A DNA stretch of 64,000 nt from the NCBI GenBank assembly GCA_029259745.1, contig JAJDEO010000024.1:124001-188000 (forward strand), written 5' to 3'. This stretch comes from Planctomycetota bacterium. GTDB taxonomy: Bacteria > Planctomycetota > B15-G4. Shown here one piece after another: positions 34,739 through 44,281 of the stretch (positions within the stretch are counted from its first letter, which is position 1; every line of letters begins with the position of its first letter). Below the pieces are notes generated by a model. It had not been told where the DNA came from, made no database searches, and saw nothing but the letters and a program-made list of their open reading frames with translations. Both the position numbers and the translations under genes were made by a program.

Positions 34739-35353
34739 TCATTCGTTCACCCAGAGTTGCATCGTTTTCTCCACCTGCCAACCGTCGTCGACCTTGCGCA
34801 TCAGCAGGATCTCGCCGCGGCGGCCCGTGCTCGTGTAGAGCAGCGCTTCGTCGCGGGTGACGTTGAAGCCGATGTTGGAGACGGCCCAGAGGCCGAGGTT
34901 GTGGCCGTCATCAAAGCCGAGCTCGGTGTAGATCGCCTTGCAGTCGGCGTCGGTGAGTTGGCCGCGGTAGTCGTCCTCATCGATGCGGATGAGGGCGACG
35001 TCGGAGAGCGTGAGCGCGGGGACGTCGTGCTCGACGCGTGACGCTTCGAGGAACGCCGTGAGGAGGTGATCGGCTTCGAGACTTGAACTCGCGAGGCGCG
35101 GAGCGATGGCGGCGTGGAGGACGTCGATGTCGTCGTCGAGCGACAGGCCATGGCGGAGGACGAGGTGCTCGAGACCACTCGTGACCGTGCCGTCGAAGAG
35201 CAGCGCCCGCGCCGTCGCGTCGGGAGCGACGACGTGGCCGTGACGCGCGAGCGCGGCCTCGTAGATCGCGGCCGCGTCGGGATCGACGCGCGCGGTGCAT
35301 GCCGCCACGCACGTCAGCACCATCAGCGCGGCGAGTCGTTTCAACTGATCCAT
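34739..35353 (-). CDS. Lipoprotein of unknown function, paralogue C of a local family
   Basis: 204 residues from ATG 35353; signal peptide and lipobox (CVAACTA). It aligns with the upstream gene and with the broken copy beyond it: AAAIYEAALARHG, ALLFDGTVTSGL, DVALIRIDEDDYRG, WAVSNIGFNVTRDEALLY, LLMRKVDDGWQVEKTMQLWVNE against the upstream SAIYAEVLQQ, VIRVDRDDYRA, MSVSPIGFSDDRRYAAV, LLTRLAPGWRVTGRVQLWIS. I recognise no known domain. Its ATG lies 13 bp inside the end of the upstream paralogue, so the pair is coupled. It faces the pgl-hydrolase operon tail to tail. Confidence 0.8.
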   Translation of the reverse strand: MDQLKRLAALMVLTCVAACTARVDPDAAAIYEAALARHGHVVAPDATARALLFDGTVTSGLEHLVLRHGLSLDDDIDVLHAAIAPRLASSSLEADHLLTAFLEASRVEHDVPALTLSDVALIRIDEDDYRGQLTDADCKAIYTELGFDDGHNLGLWAVSNIGFNVTRDEALLYTSTGRRGEILLMRKVDDGWQVEKTMQLWVNE

Positions 35354-36012
35354 AGCTGAACCCGCCCTGTCACGCGCCACCCCGGAGCAAGCCGCGTGAG
35401 CAGCAACACGAAACCCACACCGCCGTAGTCGACGCCAACGGCTGCGTAGCGACGGTCGTCCGAAAACCCGATCGGCGAGACGGACATGACGCCGACGAAG
35501 CGGTCGCCTTTCACGTCGACACCGAGTTCTTCGAACGTGCGCGAGTAGCCCACGTCGTCGACACGCGCGCGGTAATCGTCGCGGTCGACGCGAATGACGT
35601 CGAGGCGTTCGAGCGCCAGCTCGGGAACCAGCGCATGCTGCTCGCGGTGAGCTGCAACGAGCGCATCGACGACCACGAGCGGCACGCCGGCCCTACGGAA
35701 GTCGCCCGACGTTCCGTCGAAACCGCGCTCGAGGATGCGGCGGGCCAGCTCGTCGACGAACTCATCACGTTCGACCTCTTCGCGCGTCTGGAGCGCGAGG
35801 AGTCCGTTCCTCGCGCGGCTGAACAGCACGGCCTGAAGTCGCCCTTCGGCCGGCGGTGGGCCACCGTGATAGAGGTTCTCCTGCTGAAGGACCTCGGCGT
35901 AGATCGCGGACGCATCACTCGCCGGCCCATCACTCGCGGGCAACTGCACCTCGCCGGCACACGAGCCGAGCAAGAGCACACTCATCATGACGCAGCATTG
36001 GCGAATGGTCAT
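35341..36012 (-). CDS. Lipoprotein of unknown function, paralogue B of a local family
   Basis: 223 residues from ATG 36012, with signal peptide and lipobox (LLLGSCAG). The same frame is open for another 119 codons upstream, but that extension is the tail of a third, broken paralogue (ARLPQGWRV aligns with this protein's own TRLAPGWRV), so the true start is the ATG before the signal peptide. The mature part has no recognised domain; the conserved skeleton of the family is an acidic VDRDDY segment, an IGF turn, and a terminal aromatic strand. Confidence 0.8.
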   Translation of the reverse strand: MTIRQCCVMMSVLLLGSCAGEVQLPASDGPASDASAIYAEVLQQENLYHGGPPPAEGRLQAVLFSRARNGLLALQTREEVERDEFVDELARRILERGFDGTSGDFRRAGVPLVVVDALVAAHREQHALVPELALERLDVIRVDRDDYRARVDDVGYSRTFEELGVDVKGDRFVGVMSVSPIGFSDDRRYAAVGVDYGGVGFVLLLTRLAPGWRVTGRVQLWIS

Positions 36013-36751
36013 GCGGGCATCGTACTTCAGCAGCTGGGATCCGCCACGAAGCGACGACGTCACACGCCAGCCCTGCGGAAGACGTGCGACGAAGACGGTG
36101 TACCCGGCACCAGGGTCGTCGACCTCGTGGTGTGATTCAAAAGTTCGCGAAATGAGTTTTGGGTCATCGTCGTCGCTGGCAAGGCGCATCGCCGCAGGCG
36201 AATTCTTTTGAATCACACCACGAGACGGCCGCATGTTGGCGACCCTCGGTGAAGCCGACCGGCCAGACGGAGAACTCACCGACATGCGCGTCGGGCCGGT
36301 GACCGTGCAAGCCTGCCTCATGAAAGAGCTTCTCCATCTTCTTGGCGGTGTCGTCGTCCGCTCGCGCAAGGCCGAGACGCGCGAGCGCCCACGCGGCGAT
36401 CAGCGGACGTCCGTCGCGGTGCGCAGCGAGGATTGCATCGACACCGGAGCGCGTCACAACCGACGCCTCAGCGTCCATCACGTCCGAACAACGCTCGACG
36501 ATCGTCGTCGCGCGACTGTCGGGAAACGCGTACTCACCGAGACCCGCCGCGTGTTGCAACGTCGCGAGCCCGTTCCGCGAGCGTTCTCAGAGCAAACCGT
36601 GCAGACGTCCGCGCGGCTCGATATGCACCGCGTCGAGGTGATCCTGGTCGTCGCCCGGCGGCACGAGTGCCCGGTCAGCGCAGCGACCAAGCGCGAACAA
36701 GGCGACGACGGCAAGGAGCGCCGAGATGGAATGGAAAGTTCGCGCGGTCAT
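36013..36751 (-). pseudogene. Broken third paralogue of the lipoprotein family
   Basis: From ATG 36751 a signal peptide (ISALLAVVALFALGRCAD) and family-like sequence run to an in-frame TGA at 36589-36587. In the same frame the homology continues (ERSRNGLATLQH aligns with SRARNGLLALQT of paralogue B; FSVWPVGFTEGRQHAAV aligns with MSVSPIGFSDDRRYAAV). It is then interrupted by a palindromic element at 36124-36224, after which the last strand resumes in another frame (VDDPGAGYTVFVARLPQGWRV). Excising about 97 nt would restore AVSVDDPGAGY. The tail then runs without a stop into the start of paralogue B. Two independent lesions indicate a pseudogene, though restart at 36559 cannot be excluded. Confidence 0.8.
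36124..36224. mobile_element. Short palindromic (MITE-like) insertion, 101 bp
   Basis: Perfect 20-bp inverted arms (36124-36143 and 36205-36224), extended inward by five more matching bases after a 2-nt bulge, enclose a short centre. The element splits the third lipoprotein paralogue between two stretches that align with its intact neighbours. No coding capacity and no certain target duplication. Arms are AT-richer than the surroundings, which supports foreign origin. Confidence 0.65.
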
Positions 36752-36972
36752 GAAAGTGGGCATAACCGGCCCTTGAGGACGGATCGCGACCCTCCGCGCC
36801 GCCGCGTGGCCACATCGAGACACCCGTCCCGGATGTTCGACACTTGCAGAGATGCGCAAACCGCACCTAACATCCATCGGTCTTGGTGCATCAGTCATCC
36901 TCTCTCGACGCCGCTGGGCGGGCAGCGACCCGGCGTCCGAGCGCCCGTATCCCGCTGCCTCGGAGGGTCGCG
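36752..36972. other. Divergent intergenic region
   Basis: 221 bp between the broken lipoprotein (minus) and the lamin-tail exoprotein (plus). It ends with a clear GGAGG (36962-36966) placed for the exoprotein ATG at 36973. No other distinct element seen. Confidence 0.5.
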
Positions 36973-38727
36973 ATGCGACTTCTTTCCATCCTTGGTGTTG
37001 CCGCTCTCACGAGCGCCGCCTTCGCACAAACACCTCAACGCGTCGACGTCGAGAACATCACGCACGTCGGTGTCTACCACGTGGCAACGAACACGATCAC
37101 ACCGGCGTCGCAGTTCGAAGGCACGCCGGCTCTCGTCTTCGACAACACGGCGTTCGCTGGCTCGTTCTTCGCGCCGGGCCCCGGCACGAAGAACCTCGAC
37201 TGGGCCGACCTCTCGGCCGTCGGCCAGAACGAGCTCACCGAGTTCGTCCTCGGCTACGCCACGTCGGAACTCGGCACCGTCGACGTCAACGTCGAGTTCC
37301 GCTCCGGCACGGCCGGCTTCAGCGTGCAGGGCGCGCTCGAAGCCGCCTTCAGCCTGACCGGTCTGCCCGGCTCCGTCTCGGGTGGTCCCGAGGCCTTCGC
37401 CGTCACGGTCGACCTGACGGGCGCCGAGTTCGTCCTTCCCGACGGTGACTTCGGCTACTCCTTCGAAGCCCTCGACTCGACGACGGGCCCGCTGCTCGTC
37501 GGCCCGCCGAACCCGGCCGGTGTCGAAGACGCGTGGGACATCTACGACCTCGCCGACACCTACCTCGGTACGAGCTTCTTCGGTGGCACGCCGCTCGCGT
37601 CGTTCTACCTCACGCTCACGGGCCAGCAGCCCGCGCTCGAGCCGACGGCTCCCGCGCGCCTGCTGCTCAGTGAGTTCGCGGTGACGCCGACGGACGGTGA
37701 GTTCGTCGAGATCTTCAACCCGAACAGCTACCCGGTCGACCTCACGGACGTGTACCTCACGGACGGGACGTTCGCCGGCGGCAACACGTACTACTACCAG
37801 ATCGTCGAAGGTGGCGGCGGTGGCGGTGGCTTCGGCGACTTCTACGCACGCTTCCCGGCCGGCGCCTCGATCGGCCCGGGCGAGTACCAGACCGTCGCGC
37901 TGAACGGCTCGATCGCGTTCCTCGCGACCTTCGGTGTCCTGCCCACCTACGAGACGGCCGAAGACGACATCGTCCCGGATGCGATCCCGGAGATGCTCGA
38001 AGCCACGCCGGGTTCGCTCGGCACCGACTTCCAGGGTGGCCTGACGAACTTCGGTGAAGTCGTCGTGCTCCTCTACTGGGATGGCGAAAGCGACCTCGTG
38101 CAGGATCTCGACTACGTCGTCTACGGCGACAAGGTCGAGGCCATCGACAAGACGGGCGTCGCGATCGACGGTCCGGACGTCGACACCGACACGAGCACCT
38201 ACGCCGACGACACGGCGATCATCGATCAGGATGGCGCCGTCGCCGGTGCAACGGGCGGTCACGCCGGTGGCAACTCGTGGCAGCGTCAGCACCTCTCGGA
38301 AGGCTCGGAGATCCGCACGGGCGGAAACGGTGTGACGGGCAACGACGAAATGTCCGAGAACGTGTCGTTCACGTGGGTCGACGATGTCGCCACGCCGAAC
38401 GCTCCTGCGGCCGGCGCCGTCTCGGTGCGTCTTGCTCCGGGTTCGCTCGGTCGCAACACGGTCGAGCTGCGCAACGCGACGCCGGACACGCTCGTGTTCT
38501 TCGTCGCGAGCCTGGCCGAAGGTCTTGTCACGACGAACAAGTGCCCGGGCGAAGGCCTCGGCCTTGATCTCGGCGCGTTCTTGATCGAAGCGATCACGAC
38601 GGATGCAAGCGGCAACGTCGACATCCCGGTCGTGCTGATGCCCGAAGCCGGTGACATCGAAGTGCTCCTTCAGGTCGTCGACCTCGAAGGCTGCATCTGG
38701 AGCAACGTCAACGCGACCAACCTCTGA
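36973..38727 (+). CDS. Secreted protein with lamin-tail-type domain and C-terminal beta module
   Basis: 584 residues from ATG 36973, supported by GGAGG upstream. A signal peptide (AAFAQT) is followed by an N-terminal beta-rich domain of about 200 residues with no match that I recognise. Around 235-430 comes a lamin-tail (LTD) domain: LLLSEFAVTPTDGEFVEIFNPNSYPVDLTDVYLTDG is its diagnostic opening, with long loops including a run of seven glycines. The last 100 residues (VELRNATPDTLVFFVASL to GCIWSNVNATNL) resemble the tail module of other exported proteins here. LTD domains in bacteria are found on exported nucleases and surface proteins; no catalytic motif is visible. A textbook terminator follows. 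Confidence 0.85.
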   Translation: MRLLSILGVAALTSAAFAQTPQRVDVENITHVGVYHVATNTITPASQFEGTPALVFDNTAFAGSFFAPGPGTKNLDWADLSAVGQNELTEFVLGYATSELGTVDVNVEFRSGTAGFSVQGALEAAFSLTGLPGSVSGGPEAFAVTVDLTGAEFVLPDGDFGYSFEALDSTTGPLLVGPPNPAGVEDAWDIYDLADTYLGTSFFGGTPLASFYLTLTGQQPALEPTAPARLLLSEFAVTPTDGEFVEIFNPNSYPVDLTDVYLTDGTFAGGNTYYYQIVEGGGGGGGFGDFYARFPAGASIGPGEYQTVALNGSIAFLATFGVLPTYETAEDDIVPDAIPEMLEATPGSLGTDFQGGLTNFGEVVVLLYWDGESDLVQDLDYVVYGDKVEAIDKTGVAIDGPDVDTDTSTYADDTAIIDQDGAVAGATGGHAGGNSWQRQHLSEGSEIRTGGNGVTGNDEMSENVSFTWVDDVATPNAPAAGAVSVRLAPGSLGRNTVELRNATPDTLVFFVASLAEGLVTTNKCPGEGLGLDLGAFLIEAITTDASGNVDIPVVLMPEAGDIEVLLQVVDLEGCIWSNVNATNL

Positions 38728-44076: not shown

Positions 44077-44240
44077 CGAGCCCGTTGAAAAACTCATCCG
44101 GCACGCCGCTCGCGCCCGAGCGCGCCTGTGCGAGCGCGGGAGCACCTCGACGAATCCACCGATTCGCCTGCGTTCCTACACTGTCACAGGCACACTCGGT
44201 CAAGGACGTCGCACTCGGAGCAGTTCTTCAACAGGCTGCT
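44077..44240. mobile_element. Degenerate insertion-sequence or MITE remnant
   Basis: The left end contains CGTTGAAAAACTC (about 44083-44095) and the right end TTCTTCAACAGGCTGCT (44224-44240). As inverted repeats, 44079-44095 and 44221-44237 match at 14 of 17 positions. Ends of the form TTTTTCAACAGCCTG are common in several IS families. The 130 bp between carry no transposase. It lies between divergent genes and directly upstream of msrA. Confidence 0.45.
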
Positions 44241-44281
44241 ATCAGACCCAAGATCGACGCCGCCCCCTCGGATCCCTCATC

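Follow-up and report, generated by a model that had tools for sequence, protein, structure and literature searches.

A third lipoprotein paralogue in a Planctomycetota bacterium, very probably lost through an in-frame stop and insertion of a palindromic MITE most likely moved by an IS630-family transposase

The RUP element of Streptococcus pneumoniae is described, in the available passages of PMC2229807, as a non-coding sequence of about 100 bp with many extragenic copies, terminal repeats that match those of IS630-Spn1 and a TA-containing target. The Correia elements (NEMIS) of Neisseria occur in two size classes of about 155 and 107 bp, which differ by an internal segment (excerpts of PMC2229807 and PMC10969869). 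Among the listings and passages returned by a literature search, no paper was recognised as describing the Planctomycetota family reported here, and the string "planctomycet" has no occurrence in the available portions of a 2024 review of prokaryotic MITEs (PMC10969869).

We analysed a stretch of 64,000 nucleotides (the window), positions 124001-188000 of contig C17 in a Planctomycetota draft genome (G000, hereafter the own genome; 5.88 Mb, 70 contigs, 91% complete). Two genomes of the same GTDB family, G002 and G005, are apparently the MAGs OFTM9 and OFTM49, as identified by matches at identical contig places. In the window, the minus strand carries three small lipoprotein paralogues in head-to-tail arrangement, in the order C, B, A, and transcription proceeds leftwards. 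The features of the cluster are as follows:

About 36763-36013, minus strand: paralogue C, putative lipoprotein pseudogene (one-frame homology to B; weakened coding signal)
36589-36587, minus strand: in-frame TGA, the first lesion (read directly; a gapless position of the alignment with B)
36205-36224, minus strand: left arm of the palindrome, CTCG-TGGTGTGATTCAAAAG (inverted-repeat search)
36124-36224, no strand: 101-bp palindrome, putative internally deleted MITE copy (inverted repeat, fold, dispersed copies)
36166-36164, minus strand: second in-frame TGA, supplied by the palindromic element (read from the sequence)
36124-36143, minus strand: right arm of the palindrome, CTTTTGAATCACACCA-CGAG (inverted-repeat search)
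36009-35341, minus strand: paralogue B, intact (ORF; coding score 0.41 per codon)
35353-34739, minus strand: paralogue A, intact (ORF; coding score 0.66 per codon; homology to B)

Paralogue A and the end of B share an overlap of 13 nt, and the two paralogues are 30% identical (E 1e-17); the part of C downstream of the first TGA shares 47 of 128 positions with B (37%, E 5e-16), and the N-terminus of C is signal-like, with an LGRC lipobox recognised by eye. The duplications are old, because the paralogues are only 30-37% identical. The initial annotation had seen a gene family in the process of duplication and loss: the loss stands, given the lesions in C, whereas the duplication cannot be placed in the present. 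No Pfam family was found for A, B or the pieces of C, and no NCBIfam model matched A or B; the predicted structure of B, based on an alignment of two rows, had a mean pLDDT of 40.6. None of the 13 other genomes of the class matched a profile of the lipoprotein family. A single weak match to B alone in G002 (E 8e-4, 64 residues) was absent with this profile. Within the own genome, a fourth, weak fragment of the family lies on contig C12 at 66678-66842 (E 7e-5). We also observed a 22-nt inverted repeat (36775-36796 and 36961-36982, 86% complementary) in or beside the region that separates C from a divergent plus-strand ORF. A promoter and terminator scan of 35900-37000 gave nothing beyond the level of shuffles.

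When the first TGA of C is read as a residue, the alignment with B spans the stop without a gap (61/197, E 3e-19); taken alone, the 57-residue part upstream of this TGA had no match to B. The frame that follows the TGA terminates at the second TGA, inside the palindrome. We scored removals of 86 to 111 nt against B, and the best score (209) was obtained with exactly 97 nt; removal of 94 or 100 nt gave 198, and out-of-frame lengths mostly 148. The tail of C contains no stop before the ATG of B and enters B in frame. In each segment of C the family frame outscores the other five as coding sequence. However, these segments, which are short, reach only 0.18-0.27 per codon; the 5th percentile of 28 training ORFs, which both A and B exceed, lies at 0.32 per codon. 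Judged from its sequence, paralogue C is a pseudogene. We thus agree with the initial annotation that a third paralogue has been inactivated, by an in-frame stop together with a palindromic insertion: the homology to B that crosses the TGA in frame, the 101-bp palindrome, the removal of about 97 nt that restores the family pattern and the tail running without a stop into B were all recovered. The start that it gave for C, 36751, is the second ATG and needs to be revised; the gene likely starts at the ATG at 36763-36761 or further upstream.

An ORF at 35341-36369 on the minus strand is opened by the element and runs from the remnant of C through the MITE into B. It could be annotated as a chimeric protein, likely a misannotation, and this frame into B is a warning for annotation.

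The palindrome consists of a 93-bp body (36128-36220) and a 4-bp flank on each side. Its 20-bp arms are perfectly complementary (20/20) and provide terminal inverted repeats, and the other copies likewise have conserved ends; the predicted hairpin has an energy of -50.5 kcal/mol, compared with -26.9 +/- 3.4 kcal/mol in shuffles. A search of the window for the 16-mer of the arm, allowing up to 3 mismatches, found just two occurrences, where 0.05 were expected, and Rfam gave no match at E<=1 across six element loci. In the own genome, 60 pieces match the palindrome, and its end has 58 matches (31 and 27 on the two strands) when up to 3 mismatches are allowed; the reversed-pattern control had none. 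We call X the subfamily of the palindrome in C and Y a sister subfamily that has the same centre and different ends (CAGCCCGTTGAARAACT). Allowing up to 2 mismatches, the hairpin centre common to X and Y has 136 matches in the own genome, and none for the control. These elements are short, non-coding and multi-copy, with bodies mostly of 156-160 bp. Compared with the usual 158 bp, the copy in C is short by 65 bp, so that nothing separates its left arm from the right part of the centre, and this deletion is unique among the 30 loci read. The palindrome in C thus belongs, in shortened form, to a multi-copy MITE family. Two features suggest that it inserted into C fairly recently: its right part has 89-100% identity with the next 23 places among the matches listed (L002-L024), and its arms are still perfectly complementary. 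A member of the sister subfamily lies in the window, just upstream of a plus-strand ORF:

44078-44242, plus strand: Y-subfamily element (L106), with the shared centre at 44146-44168

Copies of X and Y are often directly adjacent, with one tetramer in common, frequently CGAG (L002, L005, L010, L020 and L057), an arrangement that resembles MITEs inserting beside or into each other.

The flanks were compared in a duplication test: of 108 collected elements, 46 were dropped, and the 62 with sufficiently clean ends comprised 47 Y and 15 X copies. The left and right tetramers were identical in 18 of the 47 Y copies, as opposed to 5.5 in shuffles, none of 5000 shuffles reaching 18, and ten of the 18 identical pairs were other than CTAG. 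Y copies therefore carry 4-bp target duplications. No direct 4-bp duplication was found in X copies (identical tetramers in 3/15, 2.9 expected), where the second base outward from the end varies in mirror-image fashion, CT[A/C]G on the left and C[T/G]AG on the right. Mirror-image tetramers flank, for example, the X elements L005, L009, L013 and L020. The flanks of the copy in C, CTCG and CGAG, are also a mirror image and not a direct repeat, and the 97-nt insertion, being the 93-bp body plus 4, agrees with a 4-bp duplication only in length. We also looked by eye for a 2-bp duplication beyond the X tetramers and rejected it for its inconsistent pattern; the GT/GT beside the copy in C is therefore taken as chance.

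A candidate source of transposition was found in Co_bin.47, which carries a 1213-bp element with left end TGGTCTGTCGCACAAGTTCGCG, inverted ends and CTAG on both sides. This element encodes a 374-residue transposase of the IS630 family (NF033545, E 3.4e-85; DDE_3, E 2.5e-24), for which no solved structures were found. Of 22 bases at its end, 20 are shared with the MITE end of Co_bin.47 itself and 17 with the end of the palindrome in the window (both counted by hand). Because a relative has an IS630 transposase gene between matching ends, the palindrome family is most likely an IS630-mobilised MITE. OFTM49 has a transposase 61% identical to that of Co_bin.47, and Pan216 has weak relatives of it (28-35%). 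The own genome, at 91% completeness, had no match to the Co_bin.47 transposase and none over the cut-off for NF033545; four IS630-like matches fell below the cut-off (L160, L164, L166 and L168), of which L164 and L166 correspond to short ORFs located at the ends of contigs, presumably IS3-type OrfA. Pan216 contains many two-ORF IS630-like copies (L131, L133, L135, L137 and L138) with CTAG flanks and TGCATCATCCAT/TGGTTCATCTAT ends; CTAG flanks thus recur in planctomycete IS630 elements. By eye, the MITE centres are unlike the interior of the Co_bin.47 IS, so the MITEs would not be simple deletion derivatives of it. IS701 and IS5 produce 4-bp YTAR duplications; they were dropped as a source of the MITEs, the transposase with matching ends having proved to be IS630.

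Coding on the same strand at both sides was found for one of 68 usable clean-ended elements, compared with 60% of 526 random points at the same loci; the count was three elements at a lower coding threshold and zero at a higher one. Gene 3' ends faced the element more often than 5' ends at the middle threshold (20 vs 5) and at the highest (18 vs 3), and this bias weakens at the lowest (19 vs 13). MITE copies are almost always between genes. The copy in C, with coding scores of 0.29 and 0.22 on its sides, would fail the middle threshold. MITE insertions into dispensable genes are known, and the scarcity of copies inside genes suggests that C had become dispensable before the element inserted.

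Could the palindrome instead be a repeat of the REP/REPIN type, with a Y1 (RAYT) transposase as its mobilising enzyme? The many copies, their position outside genes and the hairpin shape would fit, and the available passages of PMC3733652 report REPs in Planctomycetes, together with tyrosine transposases that lie between long inverted repeats. However, Y1_Tnp (PF01797) had 0 matches in the own genome, by a search that was positive in 5 of 14 control genomes, and a Y1/RAYT origin there was rejected on this ground. Moreover, the flanks are CTAG-like and not the GTAG or CGTC tags of those passages, 4-bp duplications are present at Y copies, and an IS630 element with matching ends exists in Co_bin.47. 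We consider this origin very unlikely, and give the same low weight to an assembly artefact, in the 70-contig draft, behind the TGA or the short palindrome. It is true that the ends of contigs C5, C9, C21, C31 and C64 are within or adjoin X/Y-type elements, so that the repeats seem to break the assembly, and that the copy in C alone has the 65-bp deletion; but the locus sits inside a 239-kb contig with unique flanks, and the weakened coding and the missing stop of C are independent signs of decay.

The remaining alternative, that C is still expressed, by read-through of the TGA or as separate short genes with the element as a processed piece of the transcript, seems to us the least credible, and highly improbable. 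Both upstream and downstream of the TGA, the frame of C does score best among the six. Nevertheless, TGA terminates both A and B, which makes recoding of C unlikely; the residue of B aligned to the TGA is not a cysteine, so a selenocysteine site is unlikely; the element itself contributes the second TGA, and the coding score of C falls below the 5th percentile of the training ORFs.

All together, we hold it very probable that this three-gene cluster lost paralogue C through an in-frame TGA and a MITE near the 3' end, most likely moved in trans by an IS630-family transposase. The transposase would recognise the terminal repeats of a member of the Planctomycetota palindromic family with CTAG-like flanks, which would have inserted near the 3' end of C once the gene had become dispensable. 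The 65 bp missing from the centre of the copy in C would have been lost either before it inserted or afterwards, and the remnant of C would be without function. The pseudogene is ordinary, and documents how a three-gene cluster can lose one of its members; the MITE family is the more useful finding and merits a study of its own.

Scanned for exact matches to the centre, a genome collection described as covering 84,980 species yielded 34 stretches, which belong to six named genomes: Pan216 (a complete genome), Co_bin.47, IP29b_bin.26, OFTM9, OFTM49 and bin99p. Five of the six are titled Planctomycetes or Planctomycetota, and Co_bin.47 is titled "bacterium". With up to 2 mismatches, the centre was found in 14 of the 392 genomes of the phylum and reached at least 3 matches in only seven, the own genome (125), G015 (67), G359 (57), G002 (11), G011 (10), G005 (3) and G012 (3); the family is for this reason patchy across the phylum. 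The seven genomes with one match each may be due to chance. An alignment of 22 elements (from 24 prepared, two were omitted as second copies at loci that were already represented) contained compensating changes at 18 of 28 predicted pairs and a nearly invariant centre. It is conceivable, although we rather doubt it, that the family is an ancient one of the Planctomycetota, with the near-constant centre TCGACGAATCCACCGATTCGCC as a selected module, swapped ends, compensating arms and changing transposase partners; if so, the selected centre would be bound by a host factor or required for transposition. The conservation of the centre between distant planctomycete genomes raises the question of what fixes the interior of the MITE while its ends change.

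Compared with known systems, the family resembles RUP and its IS630-Spn1 partner, as described in the accessible part of PMC2229807, in being short, non-coding, multi-copy and extragenic, with IS630-matching ends and a TA-containing target. It differs in that its body is normally about 158 bp, its host is a member of the Planctomycetota, its invariant hairpin centre is common to subfamilies with different ends, and no IS630 was found in its own genome. It shares with the Correia/NEMIS elements, going by excerpts of PMC2229807 and PMC10969869, the occurrence of two sizes (158 and 93 bp here), stable hairpins and TA at the termini; unlike them, its short form is a single copy and its flanks are CTAG-like, and the likeness is one of description. 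Finally, like REP/REPIN and TIRYT repeats, which also include dimers, it consists of high-copy extragenic palindromes; relative to the portions of PMC3733652 at hand, it is set apart by the lack of a Y1 transposase in the own genome and of a GTAG/CGTC tag, by its greater length and by the duplications at Y copies.
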